DNA of 32,748 nucleotides from Alphaproteobacteria bacterium (GTDB lineage: Bacteria > Pseudomonadota > Alphaproteobacteria > Sphingomonadales > Emcibacteraceae): contig JAADFR010000031.1 of assembly GCA_013152755.1 (NCBI GenBank), positions 23,803 through 56,550 of the forward strand, given 5' to 3'. Numbering within the stretch: the stretch's first letter is position 1; every line of letters begins with the position of its first letter. Position numbers and translations under genes: made by a program. This document shows positions 15,387 to 29,484 of the stretch, one piece after another. The notes below the pieces were generated by a model. It was not told where the DNA came from. It saw nothing but the letters and a program-made list of their open reading frames with translations, and did no database searches.

Positions 15387-16211
15387 TCACACAAGGTCAT
15401 CGCCTTTTTTGACTTTCCGCCAAACGCTTTTATTAACGAAATAAAGCATAATGGTCAGGATGGTCATAAAGATGATGACCTTCAATCCCATTCTCTTGCG
15501 GTCTTCCATCTTTGGCTCAGCGGCCCAATACATGAAGGTAGCCACATCGTGGGCCATCTGCTGCGTTGTTGCCTTTGTGCCATCGGCATATTCCACAAGG
15601 TCATCAGATAACGGCGGTGCCATGGCAATCATATTACCTAAAAACATTTCGTTAAAATACATGCCGTCTGTCATCTCGTCTCCATTGGGGTTTCCTTCAT
15701 GGTAGGTCGTCAGAATTCCTACAATATAGTCTTCCCCATAAAGGCTGTTCCACGGCGTAAACATAGATAAATGCTCACGGGATTTGGCCAACAAGGAGAA
15801 GTCAGGCGGCAAGGCCCCGTTATTTGAATCGCGCGCCTCTGCCTCTGAGGCAAAAGGGGCTGGAAAATAATCATGCGGCTTGCCCTTACGGAATACTTCC
15901 TCGCCTTCATCATCGGTACCATTAGGGAATTCATACTCTGCGGCAAAAGCCTTTAACTCATCCATATTGTAGCCAAGGGCCGTAAGTTCACGAAAGGCAA
16001 CCATGTTCAGAGAATGACAGGCGGAACAAACTTCCTTATAGACCTGCAACCCTCTTTGTAAAGCGGGCTTGTCGAACTTGCCAAAGGGTCCCGCATGGGG
16101 CCAGTCATTTTTCTTTATTTCAAAAGAACTGCCCCCGGATGCGTTGGCAAAAGAAACTGATCCCAGAATAATCATCGCCGCAAGGCCGATATTTTTAACG
16201 ATTTTTAACAT
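15387..16211 (-). CDS. petC: Cytochrome c1 of the bc1 complex
   Basis: 274 residues. Signal peptide 1-24 (cleaved after ANA). The covalent haem site is VCSACHS (Cys62, Cys65, His66). The axial-Met region is LGNMIAMAPPLSDDLVEY, and the C-terminal anchor helix near 243-262 is followed by a basic tail WRKVKKGD. Cytochrome c1 takes electrons from the Rieske protein and passes them to soluble or membrane cytochrome c in the periplasm. Third gene of the petABC (fbc) operon, 3 bases after petB. There is no fusion to cytochrome b as seen in some lineages. Confidence 0.96.
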   Translation of the reverse strand: MLKIVKNIGLAAMIILGSVSFANASGGSSFEIKKNDWPHAGPFGKFDKPALQRGLQVYKEVCSACHSLNMVAFRELTALGYNMDELKAFAAEYEFPNGTDDEGEEVFRKGKPHDYFPAPFASEAEARDSNNGALPPDFSLLAKSREHLSMFTPWNSLYGEDYIVGILTTYHEGNPNGDEMTDGMYFNEMFLGNMIAMAPPLSDDLVEYADGTKATTQQMAHDVATFMYWAAEPKMEDRKRMGLKVIIFMTILTIMLYFVNKSVWRKVKKGDDLV

Positions 16212-16214
16212 ATC

Positions 16215-17483
16215 CTAGCCCTCCTTCCTTGCATCCAACACCGACTGCGCGATGCTTGTCGGAACAGGTTTGGTTGTTTCCATGCGGCTGACCACAGGGA
16301 TAATCACAATGAAATAAGCAAAGTAAAAGACTGAAGCAATTCGGCCAAGGGTAAGGGCATCAATGCCGCCGCCCATATTGATAATGATCTCACTTGGCAA
16401 TTTGGTCCCCAGATAACCCAAGAATATGGCATTAACCAGAAACAACCAGAAGAAAAAAGCCGTTGCCGGACGAAATTTTGCCGACCTGACCTTTGACCCG
16501 TCCAGCCACGGCAGGACGAAGAATATCAAAATAGAGAAGAACATGGCAATCACCCCGAACAGCTTGTCCGGAACTGCCTTCAATATTGTATAGAAGGGCA
16601 GATAATACCATTCCGGCACAATATGGGACGGCGTCACCATTGGATTAGCCTCAATATAATTATCCGGTTCCCCCATGATATTGGGCATATAGAACACAAA
16701 CAGGGCAAATATTACAATGAAGAAAGACAGGCCAAGGGCATCCTTTGCCGTGTAATAGGGATGGAAAGGAATTTTATCACCCGGACCCTTGGCATCAATC
16801 CCGAGCGGGTTATTAGACCCCGGCAGATGCAAGGCCCAGATATGAAGGATAACCACCCCGACGATAATAAAAGGAAACAGATAATGCAGGCTGAAAAAAC
16901 GCTGCAATGTTGGGTTATCAACGGAGAAACCACCCCACAGAAGGTGCAAAATACTTTCGCCCATACCATTATAAAAATCAAAGGCCCCAAACAGGTTGGT
17001 AATAACCGTAGCCCCCCAGAAGCTCATCTGTCCCCAAGGTAGTACATACCCCATAAAGCCAGTGGCCATCATAAGAAGATAGATCACAAGCCCCAGAAAC
17101 CACAAGACTTCGCGCGGCGATTTATAAGAACCGAAATACATGCCCCGCAAAATATGGACATAAACCACAACGAAGAACATGGACGCCCCGTTAGAATGGG
17201 TATAACGCATAAGCCACCCATAATTCACATCACGCATGATATGTTCAACCGAACGAAAAGCAAGGTCCACATTAGGTGTGTAATGCATGACCAGAATAAT
17301 TCCAGTCAATATCTGCACCACCAGCATGAAGCCGGCCAGTGAGCCGAAATTCCACCAGTAATTCAAATTGCGCGGCGCATTATATCCGGCCCCAAGGGTG
17401 CTATGCATGAGGCCCATAATCGGCAGGCGCTCCTCAAACCACTTTCCGACCTTACTTTTAGGCATATATGTAGATGATCCCAT
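16215..17483 (-). CDS. petB: Cytochrome b of the bc1 complex
   Basis: 422 residues with eight to nine transmembrane helices. The two haems b are bound by two His pairs, each spaced 14 residues: His96/His110 and His200/His214. The Qo-site motif PEWYYLPFY and the [19 protein letters not shown] segment are intact. It oxidises ubiquinol at the Qo site and reduces quinone at Qi. It lies between petA and petC, with a 10-base gap from petA. The C-terminal eighth-helix region is present, so it is a full bacterial cytochrome b, not the split b6/subunit IV form. Confidence 0.97.
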
Positions 17484-17493
17484 TTTTTCCTCC

Positions 17494-18036
17494 CTAACCG
17501 ATCTTGACCGTAGTATCGCTCAGATACTTGTATTTCGGCAAATCAAGGTTCCGGGGTGCCGGCCCCTTACGAATACGACCTGCAATATCATACTCTGACC
17601 CGTGACAGGGACAATACCACCCCCCATAATCTCCGCTCTGAAATTCCGTATTATCCAGAGGGACACAGCCCAAATGCGTACAGATACCAATCATGATCAA
17701 CCATTCCGGCTTTTGGGCACGGTCCTGATCATCCGCCGGATCAATCATTGGGTCATTATTTTCAGAAACTCCACGGGCAATTTCTTTTTCGGTTCTATGG
17801 CGAATGAAAACCGGCTTGCCGCGCCAAAGAATACTAATGGTCTGGCCTACGGGAATGGGTGATATATCCACTTCCACAGAGGCCATCGCCAAAACGTCTG
17901 CTGACGGGTTCATTTGGTCAACAAGGGGCCAAGCGACGGATGCTACTCCGACTGCGCCGACAACTCCTGTTGCAACATAGAGAAAATTACGGCGTGTAAC
18001 TTCTTCTTCATGTTCAATTTGATCATTGGTGGTCAT
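17494..18036 (-). CDS. petA: Rieske iron-sulfur protein of the bc1 complex
   Basis: 180 residues. A twin-arginine signal anchor [12 protein letters not shown] (13-24) leads into one transmembrane helix. The 2Fe-2S cluster is bound in CTHLGC (Cys119, His121, with Cys124) and CPCHGS (Cys142, Cys144, His145); the second cysteines of the two loops form the usual disulfide. The [10 protein letters not shown] loop is intact. First gene of petABC. An AGAGG ribosome site precedes the ATG. A TATAAT on the minus strand at 18115-18120 is a possible -10, but I see no good -35. Confidence 0.97.
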
Positions 18037-23624: not shown

Positions 23625-24935
23625 TTACCAGTCCACCTGAAAACGGGCGCCGATGGCATCAATCTTGTTATTTGTTACACCAACACTGTTCTTCACATTG
23701 GAGTGTGAATAGTTGGCCATAATCCGGGAATAGTTATTCAGATGCCAGTTTACACCCAACAACAGGGTATTCTGCTTTTCACCAAATGTTTCGTGAACCA
23801 GATCAATAACATCATATCTTGCGGCAATCTGGAAAGCGCCTGATCCGCCTTCATTAACAGGGTTCGCCACTTTAGTTCGTCCAAATGAGCCTTTCTTGCC
23901 ACTATAAGAACGGCTTTCTCCGGTCAGGAAGTAGCTCAGAGATATATAACCGCCGTTATATCTTGGGTCTTTAGTTGTCGCCGTTTCAGTTGATGACAAG
24001 GAGTTCTTCATCCATGCCCATTCAGCCTGAGCAGAGAATGGCCCCATTACACTGGCCAACTCAAGACCGAAAAATGTCTCCCGATCAATGTCAAATTTTT
24101 GTGACCGAACAAACTTGCCTGACTGATGGTTATGAGGGCGTTGCTTATACCCATGATTATACGTCATACCATTTTCACTACGGCTAAAGAATGAGGCACC
24201 AACATGAACTTTTACACCATCCGCCACATGGGGGCTGAATGTAGCCCGGGCGGCAAACAGGTTGCTGTCATTTTTTGACGCGTTGGTGGAGCCAAAGCCT
24301 TCAAAAAAGTAACCTGCTTTAACAGTCCAGTTTTTACCGTGAGAACCAACCGCAATACCAACCCGCCGGGATAGTTTAAAGGCATCTGTAAAGCTGGCCC
24401 GTTCCATGAAAGTCATATAACGGGAAGATGTTTGCTCTTCCAAAGAGTTCATATGCTTGAACTGACCCACGGTAACAGAAATCGGTTTGAACTTATATTG
24501 CATATAGGCATCTTTGACGGTAACTTTATTACCCGCGAAATCAGCCTCAAATTTATATTTCACATTCTTGAATACAATACCTTCAACACCAAGACGTGCG
24601 GTGCGCACCTCTGTTCCGTTTATTTTATCTGATGGAATATTCGTCCCGGCACCGTCTTTGACTGTCACAGAACCATAATCAAAGAATAGGCGTCCCCGGA
24701 TTTTCATTTTAAATTTGCCGTCCGGGCTGGAAAATTCCGGTGCCCCTTTCCATTTAACTTTCACCCCGCTTGATTTTTTCTTGGTTTCTGCCTTTTCCAA
24801 AGCTTCAACCTTTTTGGTCAGAACGGTAAGCTGATCTTTCAGTTCCTGTAACGACTGCGCGGATGCGACAGGCACCAACGCAATACTGCAAATAGCAGTT
24901 GCGGCAAGTAAGCGCATAACGGAATTTTTCATCAT
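23625..24935 (-). CDS. Phosphate-selective porin OprO/OprP family
   Basis: 436 residues. Signal peptide 1-26 (cleaved ASA/Q), a short coiled coil (LQELKDQLTVLTKKVEALEK, about 28-47) that would trimerise near the peptidoglycan, then an outer-membrane beta-barrel with alternating aromatic strands, ending in Trp436. KIRGRLFFDYGSV and FKNVKYKFEADFAGNKVTVK with SVTVGQFKHMNSLEEQTSS are the family pattern (PF07396). It would let phosphate or other anions across the outer membrane. A three-repeat PHO box about 100 bases upstream supports a phosphate role. AAGGA lies 7 bases before the first ATG. Monocistronic: a terminator follows and GNAT is separate. Confidence 0.87.
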   Translation of the reverse strand: MMKNSVMRLLAATAICSIALVPVASAQSLQELKDQLTVLTKKVEALEKAETKKKSSGVKVKWKGAPEFSSPDGKFKMKIRGRLFFDYGSVTVKDGAGTNIPSDKINGTEVRTARLGVEGIVFKNVKYKFEADFAGNKVTVKDAYMQYKFKPISVTVGQFKHMNSLEEQTSSRYMTFMERASFTDAFKLSRRVGIAVGSHGKNWTVKAGYFFEGFGSTNASKNDSNLFAARATFSPHVADGVKVHVGASFFSRSENGMTYNHGYKQRPHNHQSGKFVRSQKFDIDRETFFGLELASVMGPFSAQAEWAWMKNSLSSTETATTKDPRYNGGYISLSYFLTGESRSYSGKKGSFGRTKVANPVNEGGSGAFQIAARYDVIDLVHETFGEKQNTLLLGVNWHLNNYSRIMANYSHSNVKNSVGVTNNKIDAIGARFQVDW

Positions 24936-25123: not shown

Positions 25124-25137
25124 TTGACCCATATCAA
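25124..25137 (+). promoter_or_regulatory. FNR/FixK/Dnr-type site
   Basis: TTGAC-CCAT-ATCAA fits the anaerobox TTGAY-N4-RTCAA perfectly. Its centre (25130.5) is about 41 bases before the start predicted from TATAAT at 25159-25164, the classic class II activator position. Family (FNR, FixK, Dnr/Nnr) cannot be told from the site alone. Confidence 0.7.
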
Positions 25138-25146
25138 AGCAATTTT

Positions 25147-25170
25147 TCACTATATCACTATAATGTGAAA
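25147..25170 (+). promoter_or_regulatory. -10 region of the porin-cytochrome operon with tandem and inverted repeats
   Basis: TATAAT at 25159-25164 is a perfect -10. It is embedded in a tandem repeat TCACTATA x2 (25147-25162), which is flanked by the arms TTTCAC (25145-25150) and GTGAAA (25165-25170). There is no recognisable -35, as expected for an activator-dependent promoter. The start would be near 25171. Confidence 0.6.
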
Positions 25171-25178
25171 CGTAATGA

Positions 25179-25257
25179 AAGGCGATTGTTCCGCCTTATT
25201 GGACGAAAGTTTAATATGCTGGAACGCCTTGTTACAAAAGTAAATTTTTTAATTTAC
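25179..25257 (+). other. Structured 5' leader of the porin-cytochrome operon
   Basis: The predicted leader is about 177 bases. It holds a hairpin AAGGCG/CGCCTT (25179-25197), and a second perfect 7-bp stem GTAAATT-TTTT-AATTTAC (25240-25257). A 30-codon ORF with GGACGAAAG upstream (25216-25308, MLERLVTKVNFLIYI at its start) overlaps the second hairpin. I do not recognise a riboswitch. A regulatory leader is inference. Confidence 0.3.
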
Positions 25258-25348
25258 ATCCCTGATGACTTACCCCCATTTCTTATCATCACCGATGCTA
25301 CCTACTGACCAATATTAATGTTTTTTTACTCTGAAGAGGACATGAGCA

Positions 25349-26638
25349 ATGAATAGGCTATTGAAAAAGAAAATACTATATGCACCCCTATTTGCCAGCA
25401 TGCTATTTATCGGCAACAACGCCGTATATGCACAAGAGGGTTCCATTAATTACAAGAATAAAATTATTGAACTTGAGGCAAGAATTTCGAGCCTCGAGCA
25501 ACTGAAACAAGAACTAAAGGAATTAAAAGAAAACCTAAATACGAAAACAGACAAAATTGCCGTTAAAGAGAAAAAACTTGATAAAGCGATCAAGTCAATT
25601 AGCAAGATTACGTCTGTTAAAGAAGGCAGCCCGGATTCCAAATGGGCTGTGACCGGATATGCCAGTGCCGGTTTTCAGGCCGTTTCCGGCGGTACGACGG
25701 ATAGTTTCGGCGTCGGGAGTTACAGCCCGATCTTTCATTACCGTTTTAAAGACTGGATTATGTTTGAAGCCGAACTGGAAGCCGTTACAGAAGATGACGG
25801 TTCAACCGCAATTGATCTGGAATATTCCCAGATTAATTTAATGTTGAATGACAATATGACGCTTGTTGTCGGCAAATTCCTAAGTCCGATCGGTGCTTTT
25901 CAAGAGCGTCTGCATCCTGCCTGGATTAATAAATCCGTCGACAGACCCGCAGGCCTGAGCCATCACGGCGTTGCACCGGGAAGTGATATGGGCGTCATGT
26001 TGCGCGGCGGCATTCCCCTCGATGATTTTGTCATACAGTATGCTTTTGCCGTCGGTAACGGTCCGCAATTTGATACAGAGTCTGAGTTGGCGCTAGAAGG
26101 ATTTGGTGCCGATAATGACAAGAACAAATCCCTTGCCGGACGCGTATCCCTGTTTCATAAATCTTCCATTGAAGTTGGTTTTTCCTACATGACAGCAGGC
26201 TTAAGTGGCGCGGAAGATACCGACTCCAACCTCACACGGTCATCTGACTATCGCCTTTGGGGCGTTGATGCCTCATATACGGAAGGCCCATGGGATCTTC
26301 GTTTTGAGCTTCTTCATTCCCGGGCGACCCCGGTTGTCGGCCTTGATATGCGGGAAAGGACATGGGAAGCATGGTATGCACAGGCGGCCTATCGCCTTGC
26401 CGGCATCACAGACGACCCAATCTTTAGCAAGTTCGAACCCGTGGTCAGATACGGCGAATTTCGCGCCGAAATCGGTGGTGCATTGATGGATGTTTCCGAA
26501 AAAAGATGGAACGGCGGCGTAAATTACTGGATGGCACCAAGTATTGCGCTCAAGGCCCATATTGAGCGGCGCGATTACTTCGTCAATACACAGCCTGACG
26601 AAACACGTTATCAACTTGAATTTGCCTACGGCTTCTAA
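25349..26638 (+). CDS. Outer-membrane porin with N-terminal coiled coil, first gene of a cytochrome operon
   Basis: 429 residues. Signal peptide 1-28 (cleaved VYA/Q). Residues about 33-90 are strongly charged heptads (EARISSLEQLKQELKELKEN), a long periplasmic coiled coil. The rest is an outer-membrane beta-barrel: ASAGFQAVSGG, MFEAELEAVTEDDGSTAIDL, LVVGKFLSPIGAF, ending in YQLEFAYGF with terminal Phe. VGKFLSPIGAFQERLHPAW resembles the strand-loop of OprP-like porins, but this is not a close relative of the divergent porin. Two monoheme cytochromes c follow within 21 and 17 bases. The operon is preceded by an FNR-type promoter. The solute or partner is unknown; a conduit for electrons or an anion channel serving an anaerobic pathway are both possible. 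GAGGA lies 9 bases before the ATG. Confidence 0.8.
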   Translation: MNRLLKKKILYAPLFASMLFIGNNAVYAQEGSINYKNKIIELEARISSLEQLKQELKELKENLNTKTDKIAVKEKKLDKAIKSISKITSVKEGSPDSKWAVTGYASAGFQAVSGGTTDSFGVGSYSPIFHYRFKDWIMFEAELEAVTEDDGSTAIDLEYSQINLMLNDNMTLVVGKFLSPIGAFQERLHPAWINKSVDRPAGLSHHGVAPGSDMGVMLRGGIPLDDFVIQYAFAVGNGPQFDTESELALEGFGADNDKNKSLAGRVSLFHKSSIEVGFSYMTAGLSGAEDTDSNLTRSSDYRLWGVDASYTEGPWDLRFELLHSRATPVVGLDMRERTWEAWYAQAAYRLAGITDDPIFSKFEPVVRYGEFRAEIGGALMDVSEKRWNGGVNYWMAPSIALKAHIERRDYFVNTQPDETRYQLEFAYGF

Positions 26639-26659
26639 TTTTCTTGAAAGGATAATACA

Positions 26660-26956
26660 ATGAATACCGTAAAATATATCGCCACTATCGCTTTGCTAAT
26701 TTTTCTTGCTATTGGTTTCGCGGCTGATGCGGCTGAAAAGACCAAAAACGACCCCATGCAATTTGCACGCGGGGCAAAGGGATGGGCTCTGAACTGTGAA
26801 CGTTGTCACAATATGAGAGGCCCCAAAGAGTTCTCGGACAATGATTGGGATACCATCGTAACCCATATGCGGGTGCGGGCCAATATTCCGGGTGATGTGA
26901 TCCGGGATATTGCCGTTTTCCTCAAAGCCGGCAATAACGAAAAAGTCAAAAAATAA
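26660..26956 (+). CDS. Small periplasmic monoheme cytochrome c
   Basis: 98 residues. Signal peptide 1-25 (AADAA region). One haem site NCERCHNMRG (Cys46, Cys49, His50). The rest has the pattern EFSDNDWDTIVTHMRVRANI with Met70 as candidate axial ligand, then VIRDIAVFLKAG. I have seen this short W-x(n)-HMRxRAN type among periplasmic cytochromes of proteobacteria; its specific role is not known. AAAGGA lies 8 bases upstream of the ATG. It sits between the porin gene and another cytochrome, and must be matured by the Ccm machinery. A role as periplasmic electron carrier is inference. Confidence 0.85.
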   Translation: MNTVKYIATIALLIFLAIGFAADAAEKTKNDPMQFARGAKGWALNCERCHNMRGPKEFSDNDWDTIVTHMRVRANIPGDVIRDIAVFLKAGNNEKVKK

Positions 26957-26973
26957 CCATGGAGAATATTGTT

Positions 26974-27336
26974 ATGTCTTACATTTCAAGATATTGCATA
27001 AAAGTGATCGTGGGCATGTTCGCCGTGGTTATTATGACCAACTTGTCCGGTGCAGAGGATAATGTGGCAAATGGTGCCAAAATATATGGGGAAACCTGTG
27101 TTGCCTGCCATGGTGAAAATGGCAAAGGTGCGTTCCCCGGCATTCCTGATTTTACCTCAAATACCGGACGTCTCAGCAAGTCGCATCAGATTTTGCTGGA
27201 CCATATTGAAAATGGTTTTGAAAGCCCGAATTCTGACATAGCCATGCCGGAACTCGGCGGCAATGAGGACCTTACCGAACAGGATGTGAAAGACGTTCTT
27301 GCCTATATTTTGAAGACGTTCCACAACGGAAAATAA
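26974..27336 (+). CDS. Monoheme class I cytochrome c
   Basis: 120 residues from the ATG at 26974, which has GGAG 9 bases before it; a 5-residue longer reading from 26959 lacks a ribosome site. An N-terminal hydrophobic signal (to about residue 26) is followed by TCVACHGENGKGAFPGIPDF (haem Cys42, Cys45, His46), the family's conserved GKG, and SDIAMPELGG with the likely axial Met91. LTEQDVKDVLAYILKTFHNG is the C-terminal helix. This is a classic c5/cbb3-CcoP-like soluble cytochrome domain. Last gene of the porin-cytochrome operon; its stop is 7 bases from the convergent DUF934 stop. Confidence 0.88.
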   Translation: MSYISRYCIKVIVGMFAVVIMTNLSGAEDNVANGAKIYGETCVACHGENGKGAFPGIPDFTSNTGRLSKSHQILLDHIENGFESPNSDIAMPELGGNEDLTEQDVKDVLAYILKTFHNGK

Positions 27337-27352
27337 GATAATATTATTTCCG
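27327..27352. repeat. Short inverted repeat between the cytochrome and DUF934 stops
   Basis: CGGAAA (27327-27332) and TTTCCG (27347-27352) with partly paired AT-rich bases between, spanning both stop codons. It may form a weak shared transcript end, but neither side has a T run, so I do not call it a terminator. Confidence 0.3.
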
Positions 27353-27811
27353 TCTGTATAGGGGAACGGCCTCATCCGCCGAAGTCTGATAGGTGACCGT
27401 GAAATCATCAAAGGCGTGCAATGCGTCTTTGATGTCACGGTCCGCCTTGACTTCATAAGCGTTAAAACCGCAGCGTTGCATATAAAATATCTGATCGCGC
27501 ATCACATCACCGATGGCCCGGATTTCTTTGCTATAGCCAAAGCGGTCCCGCAGTATCTTGGCATAGGAATAACCCCGGCCATCGTTAAAGCTGGGAAAGT
27601 TAATGGCAATCAGATCAAAGCTGTCCAGATCGTCCACCATATCACCCGGATGATCATCCGGTTCAAGGCGCAATCCTACTTTGCGCCCTGACAGGTCCAT
27701 TTCTTTCCAGACCGCCAGTGGCACAATCAAATCGCCCGCCGGTATATCGCCTGTACCGTCATAATGGGTCCAACTATCCTCAACAATGGCCTTGTCTTTA
27801 ATGATTTTCAT
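27344..27811 (-). CDS. DUF934 protein, partner of sulfite reductase
   Basis: 155 residues of the DUF934 family (PF06073), annotated in many alpha- and betaproteobacteria as a probable oxidoreductase in sulfite reduction because it is almost always next to cysI. Segments seen: IPAGDLIVPLAVW, LRLEPDDHPGDMVDDLDSFD, the invariant FPSFNDGRGYSYAKILRDRFG, EIRAIGDVMRDQIFYMQRCGF. No cofactor site is obvious. Its start overlaps the cysI stop by 4 bases, so the pair is translationally coupled. Confidence 0.92.
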   Translation of the reverse strand: MKIIKDKAIVEDSWTHYDGTGDIPAGDLIVPLAVWKEMDLSGRKVGLRLEPDDHPGDMVDDLDSFDLIAINFPSFNDGRGYSYAKILRDRFGYSKEIRAIGDVMRDQIFYMQRCGFNAYEVKADRDIKDALHAFDDFTVTYQTSADEAVPLYRRK

Positions 27812-29484
27812 AGCTCCGCTCCCCGTAAGGAAAATTCTTCATATATGGCTTTGAAAGGCTCCGCGCCAACCCGGCGGTAGGTATCGATGAACCGTTCCCC
27901 CGGTGTGCGAATATCGATATAAATCTTCAATATATCTTCCAATGCCGGGATGATCTCATCTTCCGGGAAACCCCGGCCCATAATCTTGCCGATGGACGCC
28001 GTGTCCGTCGCATCCCCGCCGAGCGTGATCTGATAAAACTCTGTGCCTTTTTTATTGACACCAAGTATCCCGATATGACCCACATGATGATGACCGCAAG
28101 CATTGATACAGCCGGACATTTTCAACTTCAACTCGCCCAGATCATACAGATAATCCATATCATCAAAGCGGCGGGTGATTTTCTCGGCAATGGGGATGGA
28201 CCGTGCATTGGCTAAGGTACAGAAATCAAGACCCGGACAACAGATCATATCCTGCATGGTGCCAATATTCGGTTCGGCAAAGCCCGTGTCCCTCAAAGAC
28301 TGCCACAGGTCAAACAGGTCTTCCTTACGAACATCCGCAAACACAAGATTTTGTTCATGGGTGGACCGCAATTCACCAAAACTATATTGATCGGCAAGGT
28401 CGGCCACGACCAGCATCTGTTTGTCGGTAATATCCCCTGGCGGCACGCCCGGCTTTTTCAGGGACAGATTAACAATGGCATATCCGGCTTTCTTATGAGA
28501 CAGCACATTCTGCTTGTACCAGAATGAGAAATCCTTGTTATCCAGCAAATTTTGCTCCAATGCACCACATTGGTCCGGCAGCTCTGCATAATCAGGGTCG
28601 GTGAAATAGGCGGAAACGCGCTCTATCTCGGCCCGGTCAAGCGGCACAGCCCCTTCCCGGCCAAGGGCGGCAAATTCGGCGTCCACTCGGCTGGTAAATT
28701 CCTCAACCCCCAATTCATGGACCAGAATTTTAATTCGGGCTTTATATTTATTATCCCGGCGACCAAATTGATTATAAACCCGCATGATGGCCTCGGTATA
28801 GGTTATCAGATCGGCTTCCGGTACGAAGCTGTTGATCACCTTGCCGATCATTGGAGTCCGGCCCATGCCGCCGCCAACGTAAACTTCAAAACCAATGTCA
28901 CCAGTATCATTTTTAACCGCACGATAACCGATGTCGTGGAACTTAATTGCGGCCCTGTCCTGTTTCGCGCCTGTGAAGGCAAATTTAAACTTGCGGGGCA
29001 GATAGGCAAATTCCGGATGGAATGTGGACCATTGACGCATAATTTCAGCATAAGGACGCGGATCGACAACCTCATCACGCGCCACGCCAGCCAGCTGATC
29101 CGCGCTGATATTACGAATACAATTGCCGCTGGTCTGAATGGCATGCATCTGAACCGTCGCCAGATCATCCAGTATATTCGGCACATCCTCCAGATTGGGC
29201 CAGTTGAACTGTATATTCTGGCGCGTGGTCATATGGCCATAGCCCCGGTCATATTTCGTGGCAATAGCACTGAGCATACGAAGCTGGCGCGAGGACATAA
29301 GGCCGTAAGGAACCGCCACCCGCAGCATATAGGCATGAATTTGCAGATACAGCCCGTTTTGCAGGCGCAACATACGAAACTCGTCCTCTTTTAATTCACC
29401 GGAAAGCCGGCGTTTTACCTGATCCCTGAACTGCGCCGCCCGTTGTTCGACAATCTGCTGATCATGTTGATTATATATATACAT
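27808..29484 (-). CDS. cysI: Ferredoxin-type nitrite/sulfite reductase
   Basis: 558 residues. The two halves repeat the ferredoxin-like/sirohaem fold, with QNIQFNWPNLEDVPNILDDL and GNCIRNISADQLAGVARDEV in the first. The coupled 4Fe-4S/sirohaem site is CCPGLDFC (C-x5-C) plus MSGCINACGHHHVGHIGIL (C-x3-C). Next to DUF934, the role is six-electron reduction of sulfite to sulfide for cysteine synthesis; nitrite reduction cannot be excluded because the fold is shared. The symbol is by context. It starts at ATG 29484 with weak ribosome signal. The 302-base upstream gap has a perfect palindrome at 29521-29535. Confidence 0.9.
   Translation of the reverse strand: MYIYNQHDQQIVEQRAAQFRDQVKRRLSGELKEDEFRMLRLQNGLYLQIHAYMLRVAVPYGLMSSRQLRMLSAIATKYDRGYGHMTTRQNIQFNWPNLEDVPNILDDLATVQMHAIQTSGNCIRNISADQLAGVARDEVVDPRPYAEIMRQWSTFHPEFAYLPRKFKFAFTGAKQDRAAIKFHDIGYRAVKNDTGDIGFEVYVGGGMGRTPMIGKVINSFVPEADLITYTEAIMRVYNQFGRRDNKYKARIKILVHELGVEEFTSRVDAEFAALGREGAVPLDRAEIERVSAYFTDPDYAELPDQCGALEQNLLDNKDFSFWYKQNVLSHKKAGYAIVNLSLKKPGVPPGDITDKQMLVVADLADQYSFGELRSTHEQNLVFADVRKEDLFDLWQSLRDTGFAEPNIGTMQDMICCPGLDFCTLANARSIPIAEKITRRFDDMDYLYDLGELKLKMSGCINACGHHHVGHIGILGVNKKGTEFYQITLGGDATDTASIGKIMGRGFPEDEIIPALEDILKIYIDIRTPGERFIDTYRRVGAEPFKAIYEEFSLRGAEL

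Follow-up and report, generated by a model that had tools for sequence, protein, structure and literature searches.

A porin and two monohaem cytochromes behind a class II dyad

We analysed a 32,748-nucleotide stretch of alphaproteobacterial DNA (hereafter the window), which lies on contig 31 of a 2.9 Mb, 95.5% complete source genome and carries three adjacent genes for an outer-membrane porin and two small c-type cytochromes, preceded by an FNR/CRP-type dyad. The porin gene (25349..26638, forward strand, 429 residues) is followed after 21 bases by that of a small monohaem c-type cytochrome, CytA (26660..26956, 98 residues, one CXXCH motif, CERCH), and after a further 2 bases by that of a class I monohaem cytochrome c, CytB (26959..27336, 125 residues, one CXXCH motif, CVACH), all three on the same strand. 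The true start of CytB may be a second ATG at 26974, which is preceded by GGAG and near which several homologues begin. A preliminary description of this DNA had read the dyad, a TATAAT and the three genes as one operon with a class II promoter, and all five elements are present where it had placed them. We argue below that this porin-CytA-CytB module may be a split, Cyc2-like electron module of the outer membrane.

The porin matches the Pfam family Porin_O_P (PF07396) at 30.1 bits, above the gathering score of 20.9, and matches Porin_4 as well. Its structure model (pLDDT 80, pTM 0.72, with the N-terminal 34 residues poorly modelled) is a 16-strand barrel with a helix of about 54 residues (35–88) ahead of it, and its top structural matches are OprO (4RJW) and OprP (2O4V), with a Z score of 27.3 each. 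A loop at residues 179–211 is conserved, with His189 present in 40 and His205 in 34 of the 43 aligned porins.

CytA belongs to no Pfam family above the cut-off. Its structure model is small and helical (pLDDT 85); Foldseek gave nothing below 0.001, cytochrome c6 coming nearest at E 0.3. Its profile matches solved sequences mainly around the CXXCH motif (best E 3e-06, to a bc1 cytochrome c subunit). Over 40 aligned homologues the invariant residues are C46, C49, H50, W63, H69-M70-R71 and R73. CytB is above the Pfam cut-offs for Cytochrom_C and Cytochrome_CBB3, at 49.6 bits (cut-off 21.3) and 49.1 bits (cut-off 27), and in 40 of 51 loci the core of CytA is more positive than that of CytB.

The dyad, TTGAC-CCAT-ATCAA (TTGACCCATATCAA), occupies 25124..25137 on the forward strand with its centre at 25130.5, and the putative −10 element TATAAT at 25159..25164 predicts a start at about 25171. 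The centre of the dyad thus lies at −40.5, near the −41.5 of class II sites and in agreement with the value of about −41 previously proposed. A leader of about 178 nucleotides (25171–25348) is predicted between this promoter and the porin start. By itself, one exact dyad in the window is not significant (0.25 expected, at least one in 16 of 100 shuffles), and scanning the region for consensus promoters returned 6 promoters against 6.2 expected in shuffles, the box-TATAAT promoter not being among them. We consider the dyad more than chance because the genome holds 24 such dyads against 5 for a reversed control pattern, and because boxes stand before 10 of 78 copies of the module, as described below.

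Boxes and regulators in the source genome

Fifteen of the 24 genomic boxes were fetched and read. About 100–230 bases downstream of boxes lie nirS (two boxes), norC, ccoN and hemA, and also ubiT, ccmC and ccmF; the nirS, norC and ccoN families (the last as COX1) were checked by Pfam and the other four genes were assigned by eye. The remaining boxes among those read are inside coding frames or before genes without an evident anaerobic role.

Three CRP-type matches in the assembly exceed the Pfam cut-off: a 216-residue CRP protein some 7 kb to the left of the window, a match on contig C79, and, on contig C172 (L148:1402-2982), a CRP protein fused to the nitrate/nitrite-sensing domain NIT. One box lies upstream of the gene for the NIT-CRP fusion and one before moaA (assigned by eye), and if the fusion were the regulator these surrounding boxes would suggest nitrate/nitrite sensing. 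A canonical FNR was not recognised among the CRP-type matches of this 95.5% complete assembly. The control by oxygen or nitric oxide (NO) that was proposed earlier is one candidate among others: the box is shared with denitrification and low-oxygen genes and recurs before other copies of the module, but the boxed regulator that we found is NIT-CRP, so that a nitrate/nitrite-sensing regulator is as possible as FNR or an NO sensor.

The porin-CytA pair is conserved across phyla

We searched for homologues with CytA alone as the query. In an order-level sample CytA was found in 20 of 296 genomes, at 24 places, and at all 24 the porin, CytA and CytB matches stand in this order. A named collection gave 84 relatives of CytA, of which 80 were kept, and with five further loci (L028, which carries the window copy, L029, L037, L041 and L044) these form a set of 85. 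Loci L030-L036, L038-L040, L042, L043 and L045-L051 are uncounted because their contigs are repeated as L052 and up, as are L156-L159, which repeat counted contigs. Grouping by locus number gives 58 mainly proteobacterial loci, including one Myxococcota (L101) and one Planctomycetota (L102) record, and 27 others from Verrucomicrobiota, Omnitrophota, Binatia and further bacteria. The resulting counts are not independent, since some loci share a genome (L028/L029, L059/L061, L070/L072/L078 and L082/L084) and some rows are near-copies.

In 84 of the 85 loci CytA has, as its same-strand neighbour, a porin from the family of the window porin; in the remaining one, L090, the contig starts at CytA. 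The pair spans Pseudomonadota, Myxococcota, Planctomycetota, Verrucomicrobiota, Omnitrophota and Binatia records. CytB is a separate downstream gene in 50 of the 58 mainly proteobacterial loci, is fused to CytA in 5 and was not found in 3. Fused di-haem proteins also occur in three loci outside this set (L154, L155 and L160), with the order reversed in L154, and in 24 of the other 27 loci the gene order is CytA-porin. The expectation that the three genes would be neighbours elsewhere therefore held. Six loci with more distant CytA-like proteins (L161-L166) gave no porin match; the pairing is thus a trait of the CytA family proper. Together, the pairing and the CytA-CytB fusions argue that these proteins work together.

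Two variants of the module are of separate interest. In the single-contig genome G004 the porin is in two frames (L041:9680-11013) and is whole in a near-identical relative (L040/L067), and in G006 a boxed module has two tandem CytB genes after CytA (L044:9268-10458).

Copper-efflux genes or an FNR-type box

The preliminary description did not foresee that copper efflux is the commonest neighbourhood of the module in the mainly proteobacterial set. Clusters of CusA, CusB, CusC, CopA, CusF or DUF411 proteins occur in the fetched flanks of 31 of the 58 mainly proteobacterial loci, with at least two such clusters in 24 of the 58. When one representative per copper cluster was compared with NCBIfam, the CusA/CzcA family, copper P-type ATPase and RND adaptor (best model CusB) representatives scored above the cut-off, and the TolC-like, CusF-like and CueR (best model) representatives scored below it; DUF411, which is CopG-like, was assigned by eye. 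In L100, for example, the order on one strand is CusB-CusA-DUF411-porin-CytA-CytB-MerR-Rieske-CopA.

Other copies have the box. The exact sequence TTGAY-N4-RTCAA is found upstream of 10 of 78 modules, the window included (9 of 77 without it), as 13 boxes in all; this count omits seven of the 85 loci, six near a contig edge (L053, L054, L065, L070, L071 and L092) and L090, which is without a porin. Box density before the modules is 0.37 per kb against 0.020 per kb in the rest of the same loci, a 19-fold difference, and each of 11 permuted control palindromes is found before 0 of 78 modules. The best −10 match at class II spacing scores a mean of 3.85 of 6 over the 13 boxes, the window's included, against a background of 2.90, with 3 of the 13 reaching 5 or more, which makes a weak case for class II geometry at the other boxed modules. 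Beside some boxed modules lie hemN (L059 and L072) or a gene for a CRP/FNR-type protein (L061, L072 and L086).

Exact boxes and copper genes do not occur together at any of these loci. None of the 10 boxed loci has copper genes nearby, against 28 of the 41 without a box (Fisher p = 9e-5, an optimistic value because the loci are related), and 13 of the 51 loci have neither an exact box nor copper genes. In a quickly built tree of 57 loci, the label for the box has to change 7 times, a number matched or undercut in 11 of 500 shuffles, and at least 5 of the 7 changes are forced by well-supported branches; this suggests repeated gain or loss of the box.

The copper context bears on the possibility that the module is a set of copper-stress spare parts, in which copper islands would hold copper-tolerant duplicates of cytochromes, Rieske protein and porin, and the FNR-type copy would be a secondary re-use. 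Consistent with this, the copper loci L037, L065, L099 and L100 contain bc1-type Rieske genes, no cytochrome b gene having been recognised in the stretches fetched, and the targets of copper include cytochrome c assembly and Fe-S clusters, according to the part of PMC10304878 available to us. However, CytA is a family of its own and not a near copy of a housekeeping cytochrome, and its pairing with the porin also occurs outside copper islands. We give this explanation low credence.

The box, in turn, bears on the possibility that the module is a helper of anaerobic respiration, in which the porin would pass an anion (nitrate or nitrite) and CytA and CytB would be soluble carriers for NirS, cNor or cbb3 oxidase, with no electron transfer at the outer membrane. 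The box is common to nirS, norC, ccoN and hemA of the source genome, the porin has the OprO/OprP fold, CytB is an ordinary class I cytochrome, and the NnrR targets of Bradyrhizobium include porin-family and small cytochrome genes, as separate genes (PMC6710368, in the portion accessible). Against it, copper-efflux-type genes, without an exact box, are found near more than half (31/58) of the modules, CytA is paired with the porin almost throughout (84/85), and NirS is not found in 14 of the 20 genomes with CytA from the order-level sample. For this last count NirS was taken as a match with E <1e-50, which 13 genomes have, from a search that listed 91 of the 296 at E up to 0.001. The helper function is, in our view, unlikely. 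A narrower, NirS-specific role was dropped given the patchy distribution of NirS: the 6 of 20 CytA genomes that have it all belong to one genus, in which NirS is also present in 5 of the 10 genomes that lack CytA. A co-occurrence with one anaerobic pathway, of the kind that the preliminary description suggested checking, did not emerge from this count.

The chromosomal site and a fused Cyc2-like protein

In the window the module lies between two sets of genes on the reverse strand: a divergent OprO/OprP-type porin on its left (23625..24935, Porin_O_P E 8.5e-62) and, on its right, a DUF934 gene with a gene for a sulfite/nitrite-reductase-type, CysI-like haemoprotein (27344..29484). These flanks adjoin in 12 of 23 other DUF934 loci of relatives, with 133–297 bases between the BLAST hits, and in all 23 the 1.5 kb visible to either side is free of the module. 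G106, which has the DUF934 of highest identity, lacks both the OprP-type porin and the module at this site.

A second copy of the module, on contig 47 of the source genome (C47), has a copper-type neighbourhood and is 58% (porin), 62% (CytA) and 54% (CytB) identical to the window copy. In the tree the window copy falls within a group of nine rows that has full support and includes seven copper-context copies, and the relatives of the window module include an Emcibacter record. The window copy itself is outside such an island, with no clusters of the cusCBA/copA type in L028 and none seen by eye in the window; the C47 copy and 30 others of the 58 loci do have them. From these sequences, the history is likely to have been duplication or transfer out of a copper context, followed by capture by an FNR-type promoter.

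The same site bears on the notion that there is no functional unit and that the genes merely hitchhike on mobile islands. Copies of the module are few and scattered (4 of 398 genomes in a phylum sample at E <1e-15, 6 of 385 in a class sample at E <1e-20) and its site is empty in relatives. Set against this are the pairing across phyla, the fusions in both orders, the tight spacing and the at least five changes of the box label on the tree, and we find hitchhiking very improbable.

In G063, a relative of the same genus, the space between the two flanks is filled by a different boxed cassette (L192:3326-6915) that encodes a 377-residue protein, a small cytochrome, an FCSD-type flavoprotein and a NapC-type cytochrome. 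The 377-residue protein is of the monohaem-barrel type, with one N-terminal CXXCH motif and no Pfam match. By hhalign, the last 150 residues of its family are homologous to the final part of the module porin (98%, E 2e-13, 149 columns, with only 4 sequences on one side). Compared with the Cyc2 motif AXPXFAR[Q/K][T/Y], as given in the accessible part of PMC8406198, the fused protein has 5 of 7 fixed positions in G063 and 6 of 7 in G106, and the PXL element is present. Homologues occur in the 296 genomes as four strong (G057, G063, G106 and G016) and three weak, partial matches, with none in the window's own genome. An exact box precedes the fused gene in G057, G063 and G106, and none was seen at the G016 locus.

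A possible split electron module of the outer membrane

We read the module as a split, Cyc2-like outer-membrane electron module that would link the redox chemistry of a metal ion with the cytochrome c pool and serve in copper defence or when oxygen is limiting, and we place the probability of this reading at a little over one in three (about 0.36). We prefer it to soluble carriers mainly because a boxed, fused Cyc2-like protein occupies the same site in G063. Also in its favour are the porin-CytA pairing and the CytA-CytB fusions, the copper-efflux genes near many loci, the boxes before others, the bc1-type genes near some, the OprO/OprP fold of the porin and the more positive core of CytA. 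Specifically, CytA would be the porin's dedicated monohaem partner, docked at the periplasmic mouth by analogy with the haem plug of Cyc2; a metal ion would enter the pore, CytA would take one electron from Cu(I) or Fe(II), and CytB would shuttle electrons between CytA and the periplasmic cytochrome c pool (bc1 complex, cbb3 oxidase, nitrite and NO reductases). In the copper-island copies the substrate would be Cu(I), and the module might act as an oxygen-independent partner of CusCBA and CopG-like proteins; FNR-type-controlled copies such as the window's could use either Cu(I) or Fe(II). The docking, the electron flow, its direction and the substrate are all points that we infer. The earlier interpretation as an envelope redox module is in this sense partly supported, and the movement of electrons across or along the periplasm that it envisaged may belong to the same scheme.

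Several observations weigh against the split Cyc2-like module. The module is tied to no single anaerobic pathway, with NirS in only 1 of 8 boxed genomes. The motif AXPXFAR[Q/K][T/Y] and the PXL element, described for Cyc2 in the part of PMC8406198 available, are missing from the CytA alignment as compared by eye, and the hhalign comparison of CytA with the haem part of the fused protein gives 32%, too low to establish homology. The two forms are not strict alternatives either, since G016 has a boxed split module (L079) alongside a homologue of the fused protein. The two loop histidines (189 and 205) are both absent from the three verrucomicrobial porins in the alignment, which makes a universal metal site doubtful. 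In addition, the copper copy of the source genome has a dyad with one mismatch (TTGATCTAGATCAT) 111 bases upstream, so that the mutual exclusion of box and copper genes holds for exact boxes only; looser dyads, with one mismatch to TTGAT-N4-ATCAA, precede L029 and L088. Finally, CueR-type dyads are found before 1 of 28 copper copies, with 1.25 expected.

A rival explanation concerns the direction of flow. Genes for bc1-type Rieske protein or cytochrome b are near 16 of the 85 loci, the window included, where petABC, the bc1 complex, lies on the reverse strand 7 kb from the module (15387..18036; cytochrome c1 assigned by eye, cytochrome b and Rieske by clustering). In L053 and L094 they follow immediately after the module, and in several Verrucomicrobiota they are close to it; the neighbours in the 27 loci outside the mainly proteobacterial set include bc1-type and multihaem genes. 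In L053 (L053:1-4059) petABC directly follows porin-CytA-CytB on the same strand. In L061 (L061:10648-14844) genes for an ethylbenzene-dehydrogenase-type haem protein, a multihaem cytochrome and an MtrB/PioB barrel lie about 1 kb downstream of a boxed module. Electrons might instead run outward: the bc1 complex would give them to CytB, CytA would bring them to the porin, and an acceptor outside the cell (Cu(II), Fe(III) or another) would be reduced. This is a direction to which both the bc1 neighbours and the L061 barrel with its multihaem cytochrome would lend themselves. Yet each protein has one haem and we saw nothing that would span the membrane, and copper reduction in copper islands would yield Cu(I), which is more toxic. 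Outward flow is distinctly unlikely in our estimation.

Returning to the split Cyc2-like module with inward flow, a sharper version can be stated, which we regard as doubtful: a two-part monohaem cytochrome-porin, the split counterpart of Cyc2, would oxidize Cu(I) (or Fe(II)) at the outer membrane when oxygen is absent. It would thereby supply Cus islands with an anaerobic cuprous oxidase, and FNR-type anaerobic regulons would have recruited it on more than one occasion. Multicopper oxidases require oxygen, and it is in our judgement a live question how periplasmic Cu(I) is dealt with in Gram-negative bacteria under anoxic conditions. The only single-haem porin conduit of which we know is of the fused Cyc2 type. 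A compact, conserved porin-cytochrome module in the context of copper-efflux genes or an FNR-type box offers a direct genetic handle on both Cu(I) handling and single-haem porin conduits.

Comparison with known systems

A search of the open-access literature, with subscription journals and preprints outside its scope, found no description of a porin-CytA-CytB module. It has features of four known kinds of system. Like the FNR, FixK and NnrR regulons of Alphaproteobacteria, the window operon has the box sequence, its class II position and the sister genes nirS, norC, ccoN and hemA; the NnrR targets in the portion of PMC6710368 accessible include no such porin-cytochrome operon. CopG-like proteins and Cus are important for anaerobic copper resistance, as the accessible part of PMC7558416 states. 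Genes of Cus/CopA islands with DUF411 lie near 31 of the 58 mainly proteobacterial module loci, whereas the window copy stands outside such an island, and the available parts of two accounts of copper biology (PMC7558416 and PMC10304878) contain no cytochrome-porin unit.

The MtrAB, MtoAB and PioAB conduits, in which a 26-strand barrel is combined with a decahaem cytochrome (PMC8406198, in part), resemble the module in that barrel and c-type cytochrome genes lie side by side; in contrast to MtrAB and PioAB, the window porin has 16 strands and no MtrB_PioB match, and each of its cytochromes has one CXXCH. The likeness that underlies our reading is to Cyc2, which is thought to oxidize Fe(II) entering its pore, with the haem domain as a plug on the periplasmic side, and for whose barrel OprO (4RJW) and OprP (2O4V) are the structures named in the sections of PMC8406198 available to us. 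Cyc2 carries its haem and its barrel on one chain, whereas the window has separate genes and a second cytochrome, and the module's commonest context is copper efflux; in some other loci the CytA frames overlap the porin frames, although these were not inspected singly. Both systems, however, join one haem to a 16-strand, OprO/OprP-like barrel, as found in the window porin.

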